From Ilumatobacteraceae bacterium (GTDB lineage Bacteria > Actinomycetota > Acidimicrobiia > Acidimicrobiales > Ilumatobacteraceae), in contig JAJTEL010000007.1 of NCBI GenBank assembly GCA_021299715.1, positions 1-64,000 of the forward strand: a DNA stretch of 64,000 nucleotides. The letters are read 5' to 3'. The notes under the pieces were generated by a model that worked only from the letters and a program-made list of their open reading frames with translations, was not told the DNA's origin and searched no databases. Below are positions 1,486 to 11,150 of the stretch, piece after piece (position 1 is the stretch's first letter; each line of letters starts with the position of its first letter). The translations under genes were made by a program, and so were the position numbers.

Positions 1486-3159
1486 GTGGCCACTTCTCCA
1501 ACATTTGCCCCCAGCACCGGCCTTCGGGTGGCGATGTCCCAGTTAAACCCCACGGTGGGTGACCTGGCTGGCAATGAACAGTTGGCCCTCACCGATTACG
1601 CGCGTGCCGAAGCCGAGGGGTGTCACGTCATTGTGTATCCAGAGCTGACGGTCACCGGATATCCGCCTGAAGATCTTTTGTTGAAGAAAGCGTTCGTGCG
1701 CGACAACCGACTCACCGTCGAGCGAATTGCCGCCGTCACGAATGATTGCGTTGCAGTTGTCGGCTTCGTCGACGAAGAACACGGCGCGTTGTACAACGCT
1801 GTTGCGCTGTGCCAGAACGGCAACATCGTCGGCATTTACCGCAAGAGATTGTTGCCGAACTATTCCGTGTTTGACGAAGAGCGCTATTTCGAACCAGGCC
1901 CCGACATGGTGGACGGCCACCCCGCCGGAGCATTTACCGTGAACGGAGTAACGGTAGGTGTTTCGGTGTGCGAAGACATTTGGTTTGCCGATGGTCCGGT
2001 GAAGGCACAAGCCGCACACGGTGCACGCGTGTTGTTGAACTTGAACGGTTCGCCGTATCACCAAGGCAAACACGATGAACGCGAAGACATGTTGCGTGAC
2101 AGAGCACAACAAACACGAAGTGCAATTGTGTACGTCAATCAGGCAGGTGCACAAGACGAATTGGTGTTTGAAGGGTCAAGCGTTGTTGTCGCAGCCGACG
2201 GGACAATCGCATCTCGACTCGCATCATTCGACGCCGACTTTGGCGTTGTGAACATTCACGCTGATGGTTCTGTTGAAGCCGCGACTGTTGCTCCATTTGA
2301 GTCTGATCTCGACCGCGTCTATCGCGCACTTGTTTTAGGAACTCGTGATTATGTTCGCAAGAACGGCTTTACCGATGTAGTCATTGGGCTCTCGGGTGGA
2401 ATCGACTCGTCAATCGTTGCCGCCGTTGCAGTCGATGCTCTTGGTGCAGACCACGTGCACGGTGTGGCTATGCCATCGCGCTATTCCAGCCAAGGTTCAT
2501 TAGACGATGCAGAAAAACTTGCTTCTGCATTAGGTATTGACCATCGCGTCATTTCCATTGAGCCTGCATTCCAGTCATATCTGGACATGTTGCAACCGTC
2601 ATTTGAAGGACGCGATGCAGATCTCACGGAAGAGAATTTGCAGAGTCGTTGTCGTGGCACCACGCTCATGGCGCTTAGCAACAAGTTCGGGTGGATGGTG
2701 TTAACCACCGGAAACAAGAGCGAGATGGCCGTTGGCTACTTCACTATTTATGGGGATTCTGCCGGTGGGTACGCAGTCATCAAAGACGTGTTCAAGACAC
2801 AAGTCTTCGCATTGTGTCGACGCATTAATGAACGTGCGGGACGCGAGATAATTCCCGAAAGCGTCATCACAAAGCCACCATCAGCAGAACTACGGCATGA
2901 TCAGCGCGACGACCAAAGTCTTCCGCCGTACGAAGAACTCGATCCCATTCTTCGTCAGTACATTGACAACGACCTCGGAGTTCACGAAATTATTGCTCTT
3001 GGATTCGACGAGTCGGTGGTGAAGCGCATCGCCCGCTTGGTTGATGTCAATGAATACAAGCGCCGTCAGTGTGCGCCAGGAGTTCGCGTGTCTACTAAGG
3101 CTTTCGGCAAAGACCGCCGAGTGCCCATTACGAACGGTTATCGCGCCGACCGCGCATAA
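1486..3159 (+). CDS. nadE: Glutamine-dependent NAD+ synthetase
   Basis: 557 residues in two domains. The N-terminal nitrilase-like glutaminase has its triad visible as Glu53 (YPELTVTGYPPEDLL), Lys120 (YRKRLLPN) and Cys162 (VSVCEDIWF). The C-terminal synthetase domain has the ATP pyrophosphatase loop GLSGGIDSS near residue 303 and TTGNKSEMAVGY. It amidates nicotinic acid adenine dinucleotide to NAD+ using ammonia channelled from glutamine. The GTG start is chosen because it precedes the conserved LRVAMSQLNPTVGD and sits 6 nt after a -10 box. The next in-frame ATG at 1534 would cut into the first beta strand. The 3' end overlaps the convergent MFS gene by 22 bp. Confidence 0.96.
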   Translation: MATSPTFAPSTGLRVAMSQLNPTVGDLAGNEQLALTDYARAEAEGCHVIVYPELTVTGYPPEDLLLKKAFVRDNRLTVERIAAVTNDCVAVVGFVDEEHGALYNAVALCQNGNIVGIYRKRLLPNYSVFDEERYFEPGPDMVDGHPAGAFTVNGVTVGVSVCEDIWFADGPVKAQAAHGARVLLNLNGSPYHQGKHDEREDMLRDRAQQTRSAIVYVNQAGAQDELVFEGSSVVVAADGTIASRLASFDADFGVVNIHADGSVEAATVAPFESDLDRVYRALVLGTRDYVRKNGFTDVVIGLSGGIDSSIVAAVAVDALGADHVHGVAMPSRYSSQGSLDDAEKLASALGIDHRVISIEPAFQSYLDMLQPSFEGRDADLTEENLQSRCRGTTLMALSNKFGWMVLTTGNKSEMAVGYFTIYGDSAGGYAVIKDVFKTQVFALCRRINERAGREIIPESVITKPPSAELRHDQRDDQSLPPYEELDPILRQYIDNDLGVHEIIALGFDESVVKRIARLVDVNEYKRRQCAPGVRVSTKAFGKDRRVPITNGYRADRA

Positions 3160-4307
3160 ACAGTAATTGCAACAACCGTTAGCGCAGCCAACACTGTTGC
3201 ACTCACGGCGGGACCAACGGGTCCAACTGAGTCGTACAAACGTGTTGCCACCGAACTAAACACCGCACGTCCGCATGTACCCGCACCAACAGTAAGCCCT
3301 AAACCGATGCCGCCAGCAGTGGGAACCAAGTTTGCGGCAAGCGGCAACATGCTGACCAGCGCAAACTCGAAACCGGCAATGAACAGAATCAACATGGGCA
3401 ATGCAATGAGCGACACATGTGTTCCCACGCTCATTGCACACCCTGTGATGACCATTAACACCACTCCACGACGAACACTGATCTCTTTGCCCCATACGTC
3501 TGTTACGCGGCTACTGCCAATGCTGGAGACAAGCTCAAAAACACCCAACGCCACCACAACAGCAATAAGCGCGGCACTGGTGAAACCGAATTCATCTTCA
3601 AACCACGGACCGAATGTGATGCTCACACACTGGCTGGCTCCCATCAACAGGAAAGAACAAGCAAAGATCAGCCAAGCGTTTGCGGGAATCTTTCCCCGTA
3701 TGAATTCTTTGGGTGGGGCATGAGCATCGTGTCGAGGAAGCCCAGTTGCAATTAGGGCACCCGAAATAACCATGGCAACAGCACCGACAAGAAATCCGGC
3801 ACGCCACGAAATGAGCGCGGTTGCAATTCCCATGATGGCAACACCAATAAACAGCGACAGTGCCCACGAGGTTTCGATGATTCCGACGATGCGTCCACGT
3901 TTTTCGTAGGGAACGTGATCGTTCACCCACACAATCAGAGATGTATCGAAAAGAACCTTTGATGCGCTCATCAAGAACATGGCCGCAGCGAACATGACAA
4001 GGTTTGTCGAGAACGCTGCGAGCAAAACAGATGCCGTAATCAACACCATGCCAGCTGTCATGGCGACCAAACGGTTTGCCCTATCTACGTATCGTCCGAT
4101 AACGGGAGATAACAATCCGGCAAATTCACCAATAGTGAATGCGATACCTATTTCCGCAACGGAGACATCAAGACCTCGCGCAATAACTGCAATGAATGGT
4201 GGCGCAAATCGATAACACGCATTAGAGATGAGGCGTCCCCACACCAAACGATTCACGTTTGTGCGAACGACAGGTGCGTAAGAGGTGTCAATAAAGCGGT
4301 TGAACAC
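3138..4307 (-). CDS. Major facilitator superfamily transporter
   Basis: 389 residues, about twelve hydrophobic segments, in the plasma membrane. The loop between helices 2 and 3 has GRYVDRANR, a form of the MFS motif A. A central hydrophilic loop (around residues 185 to 200, GLPRHDAHAPPKEF) divides two six-helix halves. It is most likely a proton-driven exporter or permease, but the substrate cannot be read from the sequence. It starts with GTG 2 nt after the stop of the phosphatase gene, so the two are translationally coupled. Its last 22 bp overlap the end of nadE on the other strand. Confidence 0.85.
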   Translation of the reverse strand: MFNRFIDTSYAPVVRTNVNRLVWGRLISNACYRFAPPFIAVIARGLDVSVAEIGIAFTIGEFAGLLSPVIGRYVDRANRLVAMTAGMVLITASVLLAAFSTNLVMFAAAMFLMSASKVLFDTSLIVWVNDHVPYEKRGRIVGIIETSWALSLFIGVAIMGIATALISWRAGFLVGAVAMVISGALIATGLPRHDAHAPPKEFIRGKIPANAWLIFACSFLLMGASQCVSITFGPWFEDEFGFTSAALIAVVVALGVFELVSSIGSSRVTDVWGKEISVRRGVVLMVITGCAMSVGTHVSLIALPMLILFIAGFEFALVSMLPLAANLVPTAGGIGLGLTVGAGTCGRAVFSSVATRLYDSVGPVGPAVSATVLAALTVVAITVYARSAR

Positions 4308-4309
4308 GC

Positions 4310-4912
4310 TTACAACTCTTCGCCAAGTTCACCATGTTCAAACAGATCGACCACGTCGCCAATTTCTATGGAAGAAGACGAGCCCGGTGTGACAATGAAA
4401 TGGCATCCACCAAGGTTGGCAATGCGCGTGTCTGAAACTCGATGCGCGCGTCGCATCACCCGAATGACGCCGGCATGTGCAACACACAACACCTCGCTAC
4501 CAGGAAACTGTTCCGCCAAATCAAACAATGCTGCCGATACTCGCGTGACAATCGAGTCATCGCTTTCGAAACCAGGTGGACGTTTGTGTTCATCCAAATA
4601 GCCGGGCCAATCGCGTTCAATTTGTGTGTGCGTGAGTCCTTGCCATTCGCCTACATCGGTCTCACGTAAGCGCGGGTCGGGGGGCAAAATGCCAACTCCT
4701 AATCCGTTAGCGATGATGGTGGCGGTGAGATGCGCGCGACGTAGGTCGCTAGAGACAATGGCATCGAACATGCCCAATTTCTCTGACGCCCGGCGAGCTT
4801 GCTCGTACCCCAAGTCGGTGAGTTCGATATCGGCCTGACCTTGCCAGCGACCCATGGCATTCCATTCGCTCTGTCCATGGCGCAACATGAGAATTCGGGT
4901 CGGGGTGGTCAC
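4310..4912 (-). CDS. Histidine phosphatase family protein (phosphoglycerate mutase-like)
   Basis: 200 residues. The catalytic RHG motif is in MLRHGQSEWN near the N-terminus, the second acid and arginine are in LRETDVGEWQGL, and the second catalytic histidine is in CVAHAGVIRVM. Such enzymes remove or transfer phosphate through a phosphohistidine. Substrates range from sugar phosphates to cobalamin or phosphoglycerate intermediates, and none can be assigned here. The GTG start is supported by TACAAT lying exactly 6 nt upstream (leaderless). It is first of a two-gene unit with the MFS transporter. Confidence 0.9.
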   Translation of the reverse strand: MTTPTRILMLRHGQSEWNAMGRWQGQADIELTDLGYEQARRASEKLGMFDAIVSSDLRRAHLTATIIANGLGVGILPPDPRLRETDVGEWQGLTHTQIERDWPGYLDEHKRPPGFESDDSIVTRVSAALFDLAEQFPGSEVLCVAHAGVIRVMRRAHRVSDTRIANLGGCHFIVTPGSSSSIEIGDVVDLFEHGELGEEL

Positions 4913-4998: not shown

Positions 4999-5526
4999 CT
5001 ATTCGGTGATGGCGGCAAGAATTTGGTCGAACACCGAATCGGCAAGGTCGCGCATTTCAGCGTCTGTTCGATCTTGGATGGGGTGAGACGTAAAGACTCT
5101 GCGAAGAGTGGGAAATCCGAGAGCCTGAGATTGTGCGTCGGCGGCCGAGACGAATTCATCGGAGGCGACGAACACCCCAGGTACTCCTCGAAGTTCTAAA
5201 TCTGCGATGTCATGCACACTGCATGTCGTACAGCTGCCTCAATCGGCAAGGGCTTCAATGACCAACGTGCACTGAGTAGAAATTTCGTGGCGCAGGTCAA
5301 CTGGAGCAGGTTTAGTAAATGTTGGCTTCGCGAATCGCAAGACCTTCGCACCGCGTTCCGTTAAGCGTTCTTCGAGTCGATCAAGAAAAACGTTTCCACG
5401 CGGCTTCGAAATATCCAGCAAACCAATTGTGTGTCCGCTGATGCTGCCAGGGCGTTGCAACAACTCGCGTGTTGCAGGCTTTGACTCATTGGTCGGATCG
5501 AGAATGGTGATGGAAGCCATTGGCAT
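4999..5526 (-). CDS. UGSC-motif selenoprotein (in-frame TGA read as selenocysteine)
   Basis: Conventional translation stops after 95 codons, but the frame continues without interruption through TGA (5241 to 5239) for 79 more codons, giving 175 residues with ALADUGSCTTCSVHD at the join: Sec96, Cys99 and Cys102. The UGSC motif defines a known bacterial (seleno)protein family found in sequence surveys. Its reaction is not known to me. The Sec-G-S-Cys motif suggests a redox or thiol chemistry active site (inference). A hairpin with a GTG loop starts 13 nt after the TGA, as bacterial SECIS elements require, and tRNA-Sec, selA, selB and selD are adjacent. The ATG at 5526 follows the thioredoxin-fused gene by 20 bp, so the two are probably one operon and partners. 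It would be miscalled as two ORFs or a pseudogene. Confidence 0.93.
5211..5241 (-). promoter_or_regulatory. Sec codon TGA plus putative bacterial SECIS hairpin
   Basis: On the minus strand, TGA is followed by 13 nt and then CATGCA-GTG-TGCATG, a perfect 6-bp stem with a three-base loop containing G and U. The loop lies about 20 nt after the UGA, within the range known for SelB-recruiting elements. It is fully inside the coding sequence. Confidence 0.75.
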
Positions 5527-5546: not shown

Positions 5547-6992
5547 CTACGCAGTGACGACGCGGGTGACGGGGTCGCTACCAATTTTTCCGTTTGCCCA
5601 GCCGGCAACTATTGACGAGAACAGTCCTGCGCCACCGCCGGCGTACGTGACCAATAGTCCACCTGGCCGGAATTTGGGCAATGTTGCCGATTCAAGATGG
5701 GGTGGTACGCCTTCAGCCATTCCGTGCGCTCCACGAACTAAGTCGGTTCCTGGACGAAGGGAGCGCTGCGTTACCTCTTCAATCAACTTCTCTCGTGTCC
5801 AGCCTGCTTCGGCGAAGACACGACCGTGGTCGGGGCTGACGGTCAAGATTGCATCGAAACCAATCACCAGTTTTGGGTGGTGCACCGTGAGCAAACACGC
5901 AACATAGGAATTCACAAGTTCGTCCGCGGTACGTGCAAGTTGGTCAACAACACAACGAGGTCCTTCGCCGGCAAACACCGTGACGGCATTAACCCCCTGC
6001 GGAACGCCACGTTCCACGGAGAGTGGTGTGAACGGAGAACGCTCTTCGTCTTCTGCAAAACAAAATGTGATTTTCCCCGGATTGCCATGAGTGGCGCGGT
6101 CAACTTCTCCGGGTCGGCCACCGCCAACATTGCGAACAGTTAGTTGCACTGCTCGGCCAATTGTGTTGTTTGCGCGATTTCCCTGACCGAATGTATTGAT
6201 TCCGGAATTCATGCCAATTGCTCGCGTTCCAGGACCGTTACACACGATGACAGGTCCAACAGGCATGGTGGTTGCAAGTACGCCATGCATATTGAATTCG
6301 TCATTGCATACTGCTTCAAGTGCCGCAATAACCCACGGCAAGTACTCGGGCAAACATCCAGCCATGACAGCGTTAATCGCAATTTTTTCAATGGTGAGTT
6401 CCACCAAATCTGGTGGACATAACGCAACAACATCTTGCGGGTGTCGTGTCGTGCCTGTGAGCATCTTCAAAACACGCTCACGGGTTGGTGGAATGACGGG
6501 TAATCCGTCTGTCCAGCCTCGTGCATACATTGCTTCGAATTCATCTTCTGCTGTAGAGAATTCAATCGTGCGAGAAATCACTGGTGAGTCCGTGAACCGT
6601 GCGCGCAACGCATCAACAATGTCGGGGTCAACACTCATTGATCCGCACCCTGGTCGCATATCGGGAAGTTCTTCACCCAGTGTGTGCACTCCGGTGATGT
6701 TGCGCCAGTTTTCTTTTGACCATCCAATGGTTCGATCAATCTCTTGACCATTTTCAATTTTCAAAACTGTGGGAACTGTTTCAATGTCGTAGTGCCACGA
6801 GATTGACAGGTCTGCGTCGTGATGCGATATCACCGACGGTGGAAACGACGGGTCGTCTTGTGTGTACACCGTGAGGGGAATGTTTGTTGCAGCCAACTCG
6901 GCAAGCACCGGATCCACCATTTGGCATGTGGCGCATTCGCGTTTTACAACAACAACGAGGCCTTCGGGGAGAACAGGAGCAGTGCGTGCCAT
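5547..6992 (-). CDS. Thioredoxin-fold fused protein, partner of the UGSC selenoprotein
   Basis: 481 residues. Residues 1 to about 105 look like a thioredoxin fold: a beta strand, then ECATC (Cys20, Cys23) and a later ETVPTVLKIENG with the expected cis-proline region. A linker carries PGCGS (Cys116). The remaining ~350 residues are a domain I do not recognise, with strongly motif-like stretches GWTDGLPVIPPT, NNTIGRAVQLTVRNVGGG, HGNPGKITFCFAED and a C-terminal GGGAGLFSSIVAGW. There is no signal peptide, so it should be cytosolic. It is the gene directly upstream of the UGSC selenoprotein, and the CxxC suggests it could reduce or exchange disulfides with it (inference). TACCGT lies 6 nt before the ATG, so it is likely leaderless; it could also be reached by read-through from selA-selB. 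Confidence 0.7.
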   Translation of the reverse strand: MARTAPVLPEGLVVVVKRECATCQMVDPVLAELAATNIPLTVYTQDDPSFPPSVISHHDADLSISWHYDIETVPTVLKIENGQEIDRTIGWSKENWRNITGVHTLGEELPDMRPGCGSMSVDPDIVDALRARFTDSPVISRTIEFSTAEDEFEAMYARGWTDGLPVIPPTRERVLKMLTGTTRHPQDVVALCPPDLVELTIEKIAINAVMAGCLPEYLPWVIAALEAVCNDEFNMHGVLATTMPVGPVIVCNGPGTRAIGMNSGINTFGQGNRANNTIGRAVQLTVRNVGGGRPGEVDRATHGNPGKITFCFAEDEERSPFTPLSVERGVPQGVNAVTVFAGEGPRCVVDQLARTADELVNSYVACLLTVHHPKLVIGFDAILTVSPDHGRVFAEAGWTREKLIEEVTQRSLRPGTDLVRGAHGMAEGVPPHLESATLPKFRPGGLLVTYAGGGAGLFSSIVAGWANGKIGSDPVTRVVTA

Positions 6993-7014: not shown

Positions 7015-7110
7015 GGGGGCGTACGAGTACCTGGTGGGCTTCACTGTCTTCAACACAGTTGGAACGGGCGATCCCCGTTCGGCGGGTTCGATTCCCGTCC
7101 GCCTCCGCCA
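7015..7110 (+). tRNA. selC: tRNA-Sec, anticodon TCA, CCA encoded
   Basis: 96 nt ending in an encoded GCCA like other bacterial tRNA-Sec genes. The anticodon stem is a perfect 5 bp (7043 to 7047 with 7055 to 7059) around a loop with TCA at 7050 to 7052. The long variable arm has 7 bp (7062 to 7068 with 7074 to 7080). The T loop is TTCGATT, and acceptor plus T stems form 13 stacked pairs, the hallmark of bacterial tRNA-Sec. The D arm is imperfect (an inner 2x2 mismatch). It decodes the UGA in the adjacent selenoprotein gene after serine charging and conversion by SelA. It lies head-on to selB, whose stop codon is 1 bp from the tRNA 3' end. Confidence 0.95.
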
Positions 7111-7111
7111 C

Positions 7112-8812
7112 TCACCATTTATGGCCAGGAAGCCGATAGTCACCTGTTCGGCGGGTGAGCCCCATCTTGTCAAGGCATTCAGCGAGAGGAACGGCGTGCT
7201 TTCGCGTAATCCCCAGATGTTCGCGCAATTGCGAGACCGTGAACCCGTGCGACGAGAGTGCCCACAATGATTCAAGTTGAGGCCGAAGTGCAAGCAAGGT
7301 CTCTGAATGAAACGCGATTGCATCGTGTTCAAACACGATTCCTTGCTGAATGAGTTGACGGATGATGTTGCGATCAACCGTGGATGACGATGGCCCAGTG
7401 AGTCCCCACGAACGTATTTCGACGGCCAAGGGATGTGATGACAGTGGAGTTGCGGTTGGTCGTCGAACGACATCACCATCACGTACCGCATGTGGAAGTA
7501 ATGCAACAAGATCACGTTCGTGGGGAAGTAACTCACCAATTCGTAACTCGGAGTGAGTGTCGAGTTGTTGACTGAGATTGTCGAGTGCTGTCGCCACAAC
7601 GTTTGGAGTGGCAAACCAGTGACCGACGACAGCCTCTAACGGTTGACCCGTCAATCGTCGTGCTTCCTCAACGGGTACAAATCCACGACCATCCATTATC
7701 GATTCAATTGTCCCCTGCGGCTGTGCACGAGAGACCCGTAGAAGAGGGTGGACATCAAGAATGGTTCCTCCACCGATAGTGGAGTTGGTACTTGTGTCTC
7801 TCAACAGATAACGGTCACCGGGAACAAGTGGAAGAGGTTGGGTGAAACGAATTCGAATGAGTCCAGTTGATGCAGCGGCAACTTGTTCTGCACCAATAAT
7901 TCGTAGCGATGCAGTCTGGAAGTGGGAGCCAATGTGAATAGTGAAACTTCCGCGCTGCGTCAGTGGTCTCTGCAGGCCGGTCAACGTGGTGATGGTTGCA
8001 TCGAACACGTTGGTCATTTTCCATAAAGCGGGCGCAACAAGTGCATCACCGCGAACGAGATGATCGGCATCGACGCCTGAAATATTTACTGCGCATCGAG
8101 AACCTGGTTCACAGTGATCCACTGTTTCACCGTGAACTTGAATAGTGCGAAGACGAATAGGTTCGGAAGTTCTCGCAACAACAAGCGAATCCGATACACG
8201 AAGCGCAGCAGAATCCAAAGTTCCTGTTACAACGGTGCCAGCGCCTTTAATGGTGAATACACGATCAACAAATAGTCTGTGGGCTCCGTGTCGAACAGGA
8301 CGGTATTGGCGTTGAGACAATGTCTCTAGTACTGACACAAGTTGCTTTAGTCCGTCACCGGTATGTGCAGAAGTATGTAGTACATCGTGCCAGTGAATTG
8401 TGCTTTGTCTCAAGCGAGCGGTGACCTCAGATGTCCGCTGCGAGACAACTTCGGTGGACACTCGATCACATTTTGAAAGTGCAACAACTCCTGATGTCAC
8501 GCCAAGTACTTCCAGAATTCCCAGGTGCTCTTCTGTTTGCGGCTTCCATCCTTCGCCTGCATCAATCACTAACAGTGCAATGTCAACGCCACTTACGCCC
8601 GAAATCATTGTGCGGATGAAGTCAGTGTGTCCAGGGACATCAATGAAACTCAGTGTGTTGCCTGCGTGAGTTGTGACGTGGGCAAAACCCAGGTCAATCG
8701 TCATTCCTTTTCGTTGTTCTTCGGCAAGGCGATCCGGCTCAACTCCCGTAATGGCGCGAATCAGTGATGACTTTCCGTGGTCTACGTGTCCTGCTGTTGC
8801 AATGACTGTCAT
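7112..8812 (-). CDS. selB: Selenocysteine-specific elongation factor SelB
   Basis: 566 residues. The GTPase domain shows the P-loop GHVDHGKSS (residues 8 to 16), switch region GMTIDLGF, DVPGHTDF and SKCD. Three translation-factor beta-barrel domains follow, and the C-terminal third is the winged-helix array that binds the SECIS hairpin (KHAVPLAECLDKMGLTRR near the end). It delivers Sec-tRNA-Sec to UGA codons followed by the hairpin. Its ATG overlaps the selA stop as ATGA. It ends 1 bp from tRNA-Sec with no terminator visible, so its transcript may run antisense through the tRNA. Confidence 0.96.
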   Translation of the reverse strand: MTVIATAGHVDHGKSSLIRAITGVEPDRLAEEQRKGMTIDLGFAHVTTHAGNTLSFIDVPGHTDFIRTMISGVSGVDIALLVIDAGEGWKPQTEEHLGILEVLGVTSGVVALSKCDRVSTEVVSQRTSEVTARLRQSTIHWHDVLHTSAHTGDGLKQLVSVLETLSQRQYRPVRHGAHRLFVDRVFTIKGAGTVVTGTLDSAALRVSDSLVVARTSEPIRLRTIQVHGETVDHCEPGSRCAVNISGVDADHLVRGDALVAPALWKMTNVFDATITTLTGLQRPLTQRGSFTIHIGSHFQTASLRIIGAEQVAAASTGLIRIRFTQPLPLVPGDRYLLRDTSTNSTIGGGTILDVHPLLRVSRAQPQGTIESIMDGRGFVPVEEARRLTGQPLEAVVGHWFATPNVVATALDNLSQQLDTHSELRIGELLPHERDLVALLPHAVRDGDVVRRPTATPLSSHPLAVEIRSWGLTGPSSSTVDRNIIRQLIQQGIVFEHDAIAFHSETLLALRPQLESLWALSSHGFTVSQLREHLGITRKHAVPLAECLDKMGLTRRTGDYRLPGHKW

Positions 8813-10113
8813 TGTTGGGAAATGTGTTCAAGTGCACTAATGATGAGCGAATCGTCATTGGGGTGAACACTTCGCAAATCTAGAAAAGTGTTTCCGTCAT
8901 TTGTTCGTGCAATAACTGGCACCGAAAGTGAACGCAATTGCTGACGGACATCGCCAATCACCTGAATTCCAAACGAATCGACAGACGTACCGGGAGCAGA
9001 GCCTGCTCCAATGAGAGAGGTGACAGGAACAACATGTCCGTAACCAGCAGCATTCACAATGTCTTGTGTGCGTGTGCGAAGTGAGTCGGTTGTTCGGGAC
9101 ACCATGTTCCAGAACGGAATGTCGTCACAAACACTTCGTTCGCAATATGACAGCAACACCGTTTGTAACCACATCATGGTGTGGCCGCTAGGGCGTAAGG
9201 CACGCATGAGGGGGTGAGCGGCGCACGCATCGACCAACTCTTTGTTTCCGGCAATGACTCCACACTGTGGTCCACCAAGGAGCTTGTCTCCACTAAATGT
9301 GACCAATGCGGCTCCGTCGTGCAGCGCTTGTTTCGCCGCGGGTTCGTTGGCGAGCCACTGAGGAACAGAAGGAAGATGTCCGTTCAACCAAGGGCACGTG
9401 TTGTCTAAGAGACCAGAACCGATATCGGCAACAACAGGAACGGAACATTGTGACAGTTCACGAATGGACACATTTTCGGTGAACCCTTCAATGGAGAAGT
9501 TTGACGGGTGAATCTTCATGACAAGAGCAATGTCGTTGCGTCGAGAGTGAAGAGCTTTTTCGTAGTCGCGGTATCGCGTTTTGTTGGTGGTACCCACATC
9601 AATAAGGCGAGCGCCAGATTGTTCCATGACGTCGGGAATACGAAATCCACCACCAATCTCAACACTTTCGCCGCGCGAGACAGCAACATCTCGACCATTG
9701 GCGAGTGCGGTAAGAACCAGCACAAGTGCAGCCGCATTGTTGTTAACAACAATTGCCGCCTCTGCTCCGGTTAACAACGAAATGAGTTGTGAGATGGCCT
9801 GATGACGGGACCCTCTTTCGCCTTTGCTCATGTTGAACTCAACACTGGTGGCACGACCAGTGGGGAACTGTGGAAGTGGAGCGCGACCAAGGTTGGAATG
9901 AAGCAATACTCCGGTTGCGTTCACCACATCAACCTGAAGCGCCTGTGAAAAATCGTGAGCAAACTGGTGCGCAAGCTGAATGGCGTTTGATGGTTCAGAC
10001 TGAATGGCGCGTCTCGCACAATCCACAAGAACAATGTGGGGCAATGTGAAAGACGTTGCTAGTTCGCGGGCAAGAGCATCCACTGACGGTGGGCGAACTG
10101 GGTCGGTCGACAT
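8809..10113 (-). CDS. selA: L-seryl-tRNA(Sec) selenium transferase SelA
   Basis: 434 residues of the PLP-dependent SelA family. It converts Ser-tRNA-Sec to Sec-tRNA-Sec with selenophosphate. Family marks are NATGVLLHSNLGRAPL, GERGSRH, VNNNAAALVL and the PLP lysine Lys277 in TFSGDKLLGGPQ. I chose the ATG at 10113 because a TTG three codons earlier has no support and because TAGTTT lies 7 nt before this ATG. It is translationally coupled to selB (ATGA) and divergent from selD across only 26 bp. Confidence 0.96.
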   Translation of the reverse strand: MSTDPVRPPSVDALARELATSFTLPHIVLVDCARRAIQSEPSNAIQLAHQFAHDFSQALQVDVVNATGVLLHSNLGRAPLPQFPTGRATSVEFNMSKGERGSRHQAISQLISLLTGAEAAIVVNNNAAALVLVLTALANGRDVAVSRGESVEIGGGFRIPDVMEQSGARLIDVGTTNKTRYRDYEKALHSRRNDIALVMKIHPSNFSIEGFTENVSIRELSQCSVPVVADIGSGLLDNTCPWLNGHLPSVPQWLANEPAAKQALHDGAALVTFSGDKLLGGPQCGVIAGNKELVDACAAHPLMRALRPSGHTMMWLQTVLLSYCERSVCDDIPFWNMVSRTTDSLRTRTQDIVNAAGYGHVVPVTSLIGAGSAPGTSVDSFGIQVIGDVRQQLRSLSVPVIARTNDGNTFLDLRSVHPNDDSLIISALEHISQQ

Positions 10114-10120
10114 CGAGTTC

Positions 10121-10133
10121 AAACTAGTAGTTT
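10121..10133. promoter_or_regulatory. Palindromic back-to-back -10 pair for selA and selD
   Basis: AAACTAGTAGTTT is a 13-bp palindrome around one G. Each arm reads TAGTTT outward: on the plus strand 6 nt before the selD ATG, on the minus strand 7 nt before the selA ATG. Both transcripts would be leaderless. Confidence 0.55.
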
Positions 10134-10139
10134 TTCGCT

Positions 10140-11150
10140 ATGTCCCTTAATGCCGACAACATCAAATTGACGGAATGGACATCGTGTGGCGGATGTGCGG
10201 CCAAATGGGGTGCATCTCTTTTGTCGGAGCTGGTCGCCGACTTGCCACCAAGTTTTGATTCCTCGGTGTTAGTGGGACTTGCGCCATTTGATGATGCAGC
10301 CGTCTATCAACTCACCGATGACGTTGCGTTGGTTAGCACCACTGACTTCTTTCCACCATTAGTTGATAACCCTTTTGATTTCGGCGCGATCGCCGCGGCG
10401 AATGCATGCAGTGATGTTTTTGCCATGGGGGGAAAAGTGATACTCGCAGTCAACATTGCTGCGTTTCCAGAGAACCTTCCCCACGACGTCATTGCTGCAA
10501 TCTTTTCCGCTGCATCAGATGTTGTGACCCAAGCAGGTGGAACCATTGCAGGTGGTCACACCATTCGTAATCCAGAACCCATTTTTGGATTGGCTGTGCA
10601 AGGTGTAGTTCACCCACAGAAAATCTTCCGCAAAGTTGGTGCACAACCTGGCGATGTTGCGATGGTGTCAAAACCAATTGGAACTGGGTTGGTGACAGCA
10701 GCAGGAACCGATGTTCAGAAACAAGTAGCAATTTCTGGAATGAAGACTTTAAATCGCCAGGCTGCTGAAGCACTGCAGTCGTGTAGCGACGCAGTTCATG
10801 CGGTGACCGACGTGACGGGGTACGGCCTTGCCGGCCACGGTTGGGAAATTGCCGAGCGATCTGGCGTCACTCTCACCATTGATACGTCATCTATCCCCAC
10901 CTACAACGGTGCTCGCGAACTTGCGCGTGCAGGTCATCGCACGGGCGGTGACCCTCGCAATCGCGCATATGTGGGAGCACATCTCAGCGCCACCGCGGAC
11001 GAGACGTCTGTTGCACTCTGTATGGATCCGCAGACATCGGGCGGTTTGCTGGCTGCGGTTCACCCGTCGGCAGTTTCAGTACTGCAAGATCACGGCTTTG
11101 TTGTGATTGGTGCGTTTGACGATGGTGGCCCGCACCTTCGTCTTTCATAA
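10140..11150 (+). CDS. selD: Selenide, water dikinase SelD
   Basis: 336 residues. It makes selenophosphate from selenide and ATP, the selenium donor for SelA. The catalytic pair is Cys19 and Lys22 in TSCGGCAAK, so this SelD uses cysteine and is not itself a selenoprotein. PurM-like ATP-binding features include DDAAVYQL, STTDFFPPLVDNPFDFG and AGGHTIRNPEP. The ATG at 10140 follows a -10 box by 6 nt and leaves nine residues before the conserved LTEW. It faces selA and precedes a MoaD-like gene. Confidence 0.96.
   Translation: MSLNADNIKLTEWTSCGGCAAKWGASLLSELVADLPPSFDSSVLVGLAPFDDAAVYQLTDDVALVSTTDFFPPLVDNPFDFGAIAAANACSDVFAMGGKVILAVNIAAFPENLPHDVIAAIFSAASDVVTQAGGTIAGGHTIRNPEPIFGLAVQGVVHPQKIFRKVGAQPGDVAMVSKPIGTGLVTAAGTDVQKQVAISGMKTLNRQAAEALQSCSDAVHAVTDVTGYGLAGHGWEIAERSGVTLTIDTSSIPTYNGARELARAGHRTGGDPRNRAYVGAHLSATADETSVALCMDPQTSGGLLAAVHPSAVSVLQDHGFVVIGAFDDGGPHLRLS

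Follow-up and report, generated by a model that had tools for sequence, protein, structure and literature searches.

A predicted UGSC selenoprotein from an Ilumatobacteraceae bacterium and its near-constant partner gene, with a candidate second selenocysteine site in one related family

The window analysed here, a stretch of 64,000 nucleotides from an Ilumatobacteraceae bacterium, carries side by side a gene for a UGSC-family protein, a gene of 481 aa directly upstream of it (hereafter the partner gene) and the machinery for selenocysteine (Sec) insertion (Table 1). The four Sec-insertion genes had been placed next door in the preliminary description of this DNA, and all of them (tRNA-Sec, selB, selA and selD) were indeed recognised at 7017-11150. 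After UGSC and on the same strand, a histidine phosphatase gene and an MFS transporter gene occupy positions 3138-4912, in an order kept in the nearest relatives. The whole genome (G000; 1.9 Mb, 16 contigs, 92.83% complete) gave one UGSC match. The closest named contigs are titled Ilumatobacteraceae, Actinomycetota, Acidimicrobiaceae or acIV, together with some odd titles: L040, L042, L044 and L068 are titled Bifidobacterium breve, and L054 and L055 Acidobacteria. Since the window gene order is shown by L040, L042 and L044, and the UGSC pair by L068, L054 and L055, these titles look wrong.

Table 1. Features of the selenoprotein locus and the evidence used to recognise them.
Feature	Coordinates	Strand	Evidence
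Predicted UGSC selenoprotein gene, 175 aa with Sec96	4999..5526	-	TGA-through translation; Pfam and NCBIfam profile matches
Predicted Sec codon TGA, residue 96	5239..5241	-	Codon conservation in loci; dN/dS
SECIS-like hairpin, 6-bp stem, GTG loop, TGA-to-loop distance 19 nt	5211..5225	-	Alignment covariation, folding
Partner gene, 481 aa: thioredoxin-like N-terminal domain, Cys116, unmodelled C-terminal domain	5547..6992	-	Profiles, alignment, fold search
Cys116 codon of the partner gene, TGC (TGA instead in one related family)	6645..6647	-	Partner alignment
tRNA-Sec (selC)	7017..7106	+	ARAGORN; Rfam RF01852, 63 bits
selB, Sec elongation factor	7112..8812	-	Pfam and NCBIfam, above NCBIfam cut-off
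selA, Ser-tRNA(Sec) selenium transferase	8809..10122	-	Pfam and NCBIfam, above NCBIfam cut-off
selD, selenide water dikinase	10140..11150	+	Above NCBIfam cut-off

When the in-frame TGA is read as Sec, translation of the minus strand from 5526 to 4999 yields a 175-aa protein (MPMASIT...ALADUGSCTTCSVHD...AAITE) with U as residue 96; under table 11, the same region gives two ORFs instead, of 95 aa (5239..5526) and 72 aa (4999..5217). The preliminary description had the frame crossing the TGA at 5241-5239 to give ALADUGSCTTCSVHD within a UGSC-family (seleno)protein. Coordinates, frame and residue number were all reproduced by translation, and the family was recovered with Pfam UGSC (PF24696), which spans residues 7-174 (157.5 bits for a cut-off of 25, E 4.7e-46), and with NCBIfam UGSC (NF041046; 163.9 bits, cut-off 125), so that the U-containing translation is similar to almost the entire model, on both sides of the TGA. 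As NF041046 is a curated NCBI model, current annotation may call this gene correctly.

At the codon of residue 96, TGA was found in 108 of the 111 loci considered (the window, 30 loci from a Pfam UGSC search of the class and 80 named loci) and TGC in the other three; L001 and L032 (the window itself) were excluded from this count and from the partner-hairpin count given below. Homologues run on past the TGA, and those devoid of it carry Cys there. The D-C/U-G-S-C motif is invariant in the UGSC alignment, which took in 53 of the loci then collected (52 for the partner alignment). Also, dN/dS past the TGA ranged from 0.014 to 0.117 in 10 of 12 comparisons, indicating that purifying selection goes on, while the two others gave no dS downstream of the TGA, owing to saturation. 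A Cys-type UGSC subfamily, represented by L118, L120 and L121, has GGCGSCSTRS in place of DUGSC.

Thirteen nucleotides past the TGA starts the hairpin CATGCA-GTG-TGCATG, exactly the perfect 6-bp stem with a GTG loop that had been described beforehand. The stem was compared in 80 distinct TGA rows: 479 of 480 cells are paired, double-sided changes occur at four of the six pairs, and 500 shuffles gave no result as good; with one strand shifted by 1 to 3 columns, at most 76% of the cells were paired (at -2, where covariation was absent). The loop is GTG in 77 rows, GTC in two and GTT in one. In 10 of the 80 rows, replacement of the window's Cys102 by Trp (TGC to TGG) is coupled to a silent change of the opposite Val104 codon (GTG to GTC). 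As for the Cys-type genes with the same motif (n = 9, leaving out L118, L120 and L121, which the motif filter missed), none kept the GT loop and eight have at least one broken pair. Loop (GTG), stem (6 bp) and distance (19 nt) all fit the bacterial consensus set out in the sections of PMC13188914 covered here (loop of 3-9 nt with G in the first two positions, mostly then G or U; stem of 4-16 bp; UGA-to-loop distance of 16-37 nt). None of the Rfam SECIS families reached its gathering score in the 64,000-nt window. Taken alone, the hairpin shows no excess stability over shuffled sequence: 147 of 200 shuffles folded equally well or better (z +0.66). Its reading as an in-gene SECIS-like element is supported by comparative data, i.e. 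covariation and loss in the Cys homologues.

On these comparisons, the window gene almost certainly encodes a true selenoprotein. UGSC has already been described as a selenoprotein family (PMC2398784 and PMC13188914, in the sections covered), and the window protein therefore counts as a new member of a known family. The family had been introduced beforehand as one with no established reaction, and none is stated or given for it in the sections of PMC2398784, PMC13188914 and PMC9312934 covered here.

The distribution of the Sec machinery was analysed through selA, which is present in 187 of the 296 genomes of the class. It was found in 111 of the 122 UGSC genomes and is absent from 11, at least three of which (G191, G250 and G275) show a TGA-type UGSC. 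In these three, UGSC has one TGA and no selA was found, G250 (L002) and G275 being also devoid of the partner; incomplete genomes or decaying genes are the suggested alternatives. Of the 33 genomes tabulated for the window's family, UGSC is present in 26 and selA in 28: the five genomes without selA are also without UGSC, and two have selA but no UGSC.

The partner protein comprises an N-terminal domain (ca. residues 1-103, with Cys20 and Cys23) and a C-terminal domain (ca. residues 150-481). The former is thioredoxin-like, with a profile match to a solved thioredoxin (E 3.6e-5), a VIA-align score of Z 9.5 (rmsd 2.3, 85 aligned) and a CxxC in all 41 thioredoxin-bearing partner rows; as a single sequence, the window partner reached 15.4 bits against Pfam thioredoxin (PF00085), below the gathering score of 23.5. 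The matches obtained in the partner fold search answer to this domain alone. The C-terminal domain is conserved over ca. 330 residues; searched up to E 5, that of the window partner matched nothing in NCBIfam, and none of 38 rows matched Pfam at an E better than 0.015. Concerning the conserved cysteines, position 116 is Cys or Sec in 41 of 41 thioredoxin-bearing partners (Sec being written as C in four rows of the alignment) and is missing in the 11 of 11 without that domain, while Cys213 and Cys311 are present in 51 and 50 of the 52 rows, respectively.

A partner homologue lies directly upstream of UGSC in 74 of the 80 named loci. Among the exceptions, the partner of L084 ends ca. 1.4 kb before the Sec codon, four loci have UGSC less than 700 bases from the contig end, and L062 has ca. 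2.2 kb upstream of UGSC in which no partner match was found. At the level of the class loci (n = 30), the partner C-terminal domain occurs at most 1.5 kb from UGSC in 26 (weakly and at the edge in L003); L013, L016 and L020 have the partner on the contig of UGSC, at ca. 1.3 to 3.8 kb from it, and the domain was not found in L002. By genome, the class (296) divides into 119 with both genes, three with UGSC only (G140, a weak match, G250 and G275), two with the partner only (G091 and G239) and 172 with neither. Among 298 genomes of the phylum, UGSC and the partner were each found in 29, an identical set at the cut-offs used, 13 of which are outside the class; two further genomes have sub-cut-off UGSC matches and no partner. 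Fisher's p for co-occurrence in the class is 1e-76, to be taken as a guide only, since the class and phylum samples share genomes and the genomes are not independent. From this distribution, UGSC and its partner very probably constitute an obligate two-gene unit, and the near-constant pairing suggests that both proteins form one selenium-dependent enzyme. The partner gene, which the preliminary description had not pointed out, is the larger finding.

Several other arrangements were recorded around UGSC genes. In L210:10535-12150, the usual order is reversed: a divergent UGSC gene (PF24696, E 5e-31) comes first, and the gene after it on its strand, for which no Pfam match was found, resembles the partner by eye. 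Matches to the partner C-terminal domain with internal stops occur in G517:C32:2463-3241 (TGA and TAG) and G286:C21:11087-12076 (TGA), which may reflect gene decay or a further Sec site. Near UGSC of another subfamily, a short-chain dehydrogenase gene occurs repeatedly (20 loci matched, of which 18 are UGSC loci, some overlapping), among others in L012, L013, L016, L019, L020, L023, L027 and L031. In L205:1070-9553, a UGSC paralogue lies amid MttB, FAD/GcvT-type, Rieske oxygenase and 2-hydroxyacid dehydrogenase genes; the link to betaine that these neighbours evoked was dropped, since the MttB, FAD/GcvT-type and Rieske genes matched L205 alone among the loci fetched.

In five named loci (L092, L094, L103, L105 and L108), a TGA crosses the partner frame at the Cys116 site, within FKPG-U-GSLT. 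When the L103 protein was searched against the 296 genomes of the class, a single TGA within the partner turned up in 10 of them, all from one family (f12; four genera); these are all the f12 genomes with a partner match, and every other match was listed without a stop over its aligned range. Some of the named five recur as identical sequences among the ten f12 loci (L166-L175). All ten genomes have selA and a TGA-type UGSC adjoining the partner. In a tree of 26 partners (five of the 30 partner loci, L178-L181 and L194, being left out), the ten Sec-type partners form one group (support 100/99).

Past the partner TGA, a hairpin reads CGACCC-CGGGC-GGGTCG in most rows, with 20 nt to the loop, and fits the bacterial SECIS model given in the sections of PMC13188914 covered here. 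Its six pairs are complete in 11 of 11 distinct Sec rows vs. one of 74 distinct Cys rows (L010), while five of the six are found in 11 further Cys rows; the window's own partner, which has Cys, holds four. One C-G pair has become T-A in L169 and L175, where a Val to Ile replacement stands opposite a silent Asp change; these two loci are not sisters in the tree, L172 grouping with L175 (support 94/95). This covariation is thin, involving one pair and two rows, with 8 of 500 shuffles reaching the score and 204 of 500 the number of doubly changed pairs. The Sec-type partner, with its PGUGS motif and downstream hairpin, may thus be regarded as a candidate selenoprotein family without a database model: no NCBIfam 20.0 or Pfam model matched it beyond weak thioredoxin or thioredoxin-like ones.

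The partner is not named in the titles and abstract starts of the UGSC, GrdB and Acidimicrobiia selenoprotein literature searched, and no mention of the thioredoxin-fused partner or of its Sec form was found in the sections of PMC2398784, PMC13188914 and PMC9312934 covered. Within that literature, both the pairing of UGSC with this partner and the Sec-type partner are apparently new. The covered part of PMC2398784 reports a fusion of UGSC to Unknown_1, a conserved domain that may correspond to that of the partner.

Concerning the kinship of UGSC, its profile was aligned with the Sec module of GRDB-like proteins of the class (hhalign; 18 of the 25 GRDB loci) with a probability of 95.7 and a score of 53.9, Sec falling on Sec. 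The best of 200 column shuffles scored 19.2, the reversal 16.5 and the alignment with the Sec column masked 48.2. Against five full-length GrdB alone, the probability drops to 75.5; the GrdE profile, meant as a negative control, scored 27.1, above the shuffles, at a probability of 6.4. No match to Pfam GRDB (PF07355) was obtained at E <= 1 for the window protein, and none in its genome. By profile comparison, UGSC resembles the Sec module of GrdB/PrdB, a link that the preliminary description had not made. The possibility that the partner is a GrdE homologue was rejected on the comparison of its C-terminal domain with a profile of five PF09338 (Gly_reductase) proteins, which gave a probability of 0.1. 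Elsewhere in the Acidimicrobiia, five loci (L141-L145) have a Gly_reductase gene (PF09338, GrdE-type) directly before a GrdB gene (PF07355) with an in-frame TGA at the Sec site. Twenty more (L146-L165) encode short proteins of GRDB-like type, whose TGA falls within P-[VIG]-U-P-x-C in the rows inspected; these are perhaps the PrdB-like selenoproteins counted in ocean surveys.

The fold model of UGSC (pLDDT 93.7) alternates beta and alpha elements, with five strands, and places Sec96 between strand 88-94 and helix 97-112. A thioredoxin fold was guessed for UGSC in 2008 (PMC2398784, covered in part); the predicted model does not look like one, although such a fold may still apply, and no thioredoxin appeared among the matches listed in the fold searches. 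Compared as a sequence with solved structures, UGSC gave nothing convincing (best E 0.45). Foldseek returned generic alpha/beta matches (query TM at most 0.52 among the 50 matches listed). Among the 50 listed by VIA-align, chain H of 8s7v, a methyl-coenzyme M reductase activation complex, came first (Z 12.3, rmsd 2.7, 127 aligned), followed by unrelated folds at Z 10.3 and below.

As a whole, we find it probable, as far as comparisons of this kind can tell, that UGSC and its partner are a thioredoxin-fed two-subunit reductase. UGSC would be the catalytic redox subunit and the adjacent 481-aa protein the other subunit of a physical complex. Electrons would enter at the CxxC of the partner's thioredoxin-like domain (Cys20, Cys23) and pass to Cys/Sec116 of the same protein, and the Sec96-Cys99 pair in UGSC would be reduced from there. 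Located where an alpha-helix begins, the selenolate would then attack a small substrate bound in the conserved C-terminal domain of the partner. As this domain belongs to no recognised family, substrate binding there is a guess. Partners without a thioredoxin domain must obtain their electrons otherwise.

GrdB and PrdB work with a pyruvoyl subunit. The sections of PMC13188914 covered here say the same. Given the GrdB/PrdB-like Sec module, the likeliest chemistry for the UGSC pair would be the reductive cleavage of a carbon-heteroatom bond without such a subunit, although this GrdB-like cleavage is proposed only tentatively, by analogy. It is likewise possible, with considerable doubt, that the pair represents a widespread and so far undescribed class of two-subunit selenoenzymes, combining a GrdB-related Sec module, no pyruvoyl subunit and a thioredoxin supply via a relay residue replaced by Sec in one family. 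If true, the family with Sec-type partners would have selenocysteines in both subunits of the enzyme, and reductive bond cleavage of the glycine- or proline-reductase kind would take place, in a new form, in streamlined actinobacteria.

Three other explanations were weighed. Were the TGA a real stop, the region would consist of two small genes or a pseudogene, as the two table 11 ORFs and the unexceptional stability of the hairpin would allow; against the same-codon TGA of 108 loci with Cys in the three others, purifying selection beyond it, a hairpin that covaries and is lost in Cys genes, and the adjoining Sec machinery, this reading has a negligible probability. A less distant possibility, which we still consider unlikely, is an ordinary thiol oxidoreductase system for peroxide, disulfide or methionine-sulfoxide type repair, in which the thioredoxin domain recycles an oxidant-detoxifying UGSC and no special substrate chemistry is involved. 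It would suit the thioredoxin-like domain of the partner and the UxxC motif of UGSC, UxxC selenoproteins being mostly held to be thiol oxidoreductases in the covered part of PMC2398784, but it leaves aside a C-terminal domain of ca. 330 conserved residues that matches no known redox family, a Sec module like that of GrdB/PrdB and a UGSC model that is not obviously thioredoxin-like. Up to eight paralogous UGSC matches also occur per genome, which fits different substrates better than one housekeeping repair function.

Alternatively, the two genes may belong to one pathway rather than to one enzyme, UGSC acting for instance as a carrier or in a neighbouring step. Gene pairing alone cannot tell these apart, and the partner is not adjacent to UGSC in L013, L016, L020 (ca. 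1.3 to 3.8 kb) and L084 (ca. 1.4 kb from the TGA). We nevertheless hold this to be very improbable in view of the near-perfect co-occurrence in class and phylum, the adjacency in 74 of 80 named loci and the fusion of UGSC with a conserved domain (PMC2398784, covered part). The thioredoxin-fed two-subunit reductase is the reading retained here.

In the covered sections of PMC2398784, UGSC is among the most abundant selenoprotein families of the ocean-survey samples and the most used one in the non-marine aquatic samples. With its near-obligate partner, this small orphan protein becomes part of a defined system of two genes, open to cloning, purification and assay; the U/C exchange in the partner marks one residue of a possible electron path, and the Sec-type partner adds one candidate selenoprotein.

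Compared with known systems, the window protein differs in nothing from the UGSC-containing selenoproteins (PF24696, NF041046), of which it has the motif and the Sec position, with a near-full model match. The N-terminal 100 residues of the partner are like thioredoxin (PF00085) in predicted fold and CxxC, and unlike it in scoring below the gathering cut-off as a single sequence and in being fused to an unmodelled domain. As for GrdB/PrdB (PF07355), they share with UGSC a strand, a Sec at a helix start, E-x-x-G-[IV]-P and, after it, a conserved Pro, present as HP in UGSC and in some GrdB, whereas UGSC is without their long N-terminal part and without a Pfam GRDB match, and its partner is not of the GrdE/PrdA type.
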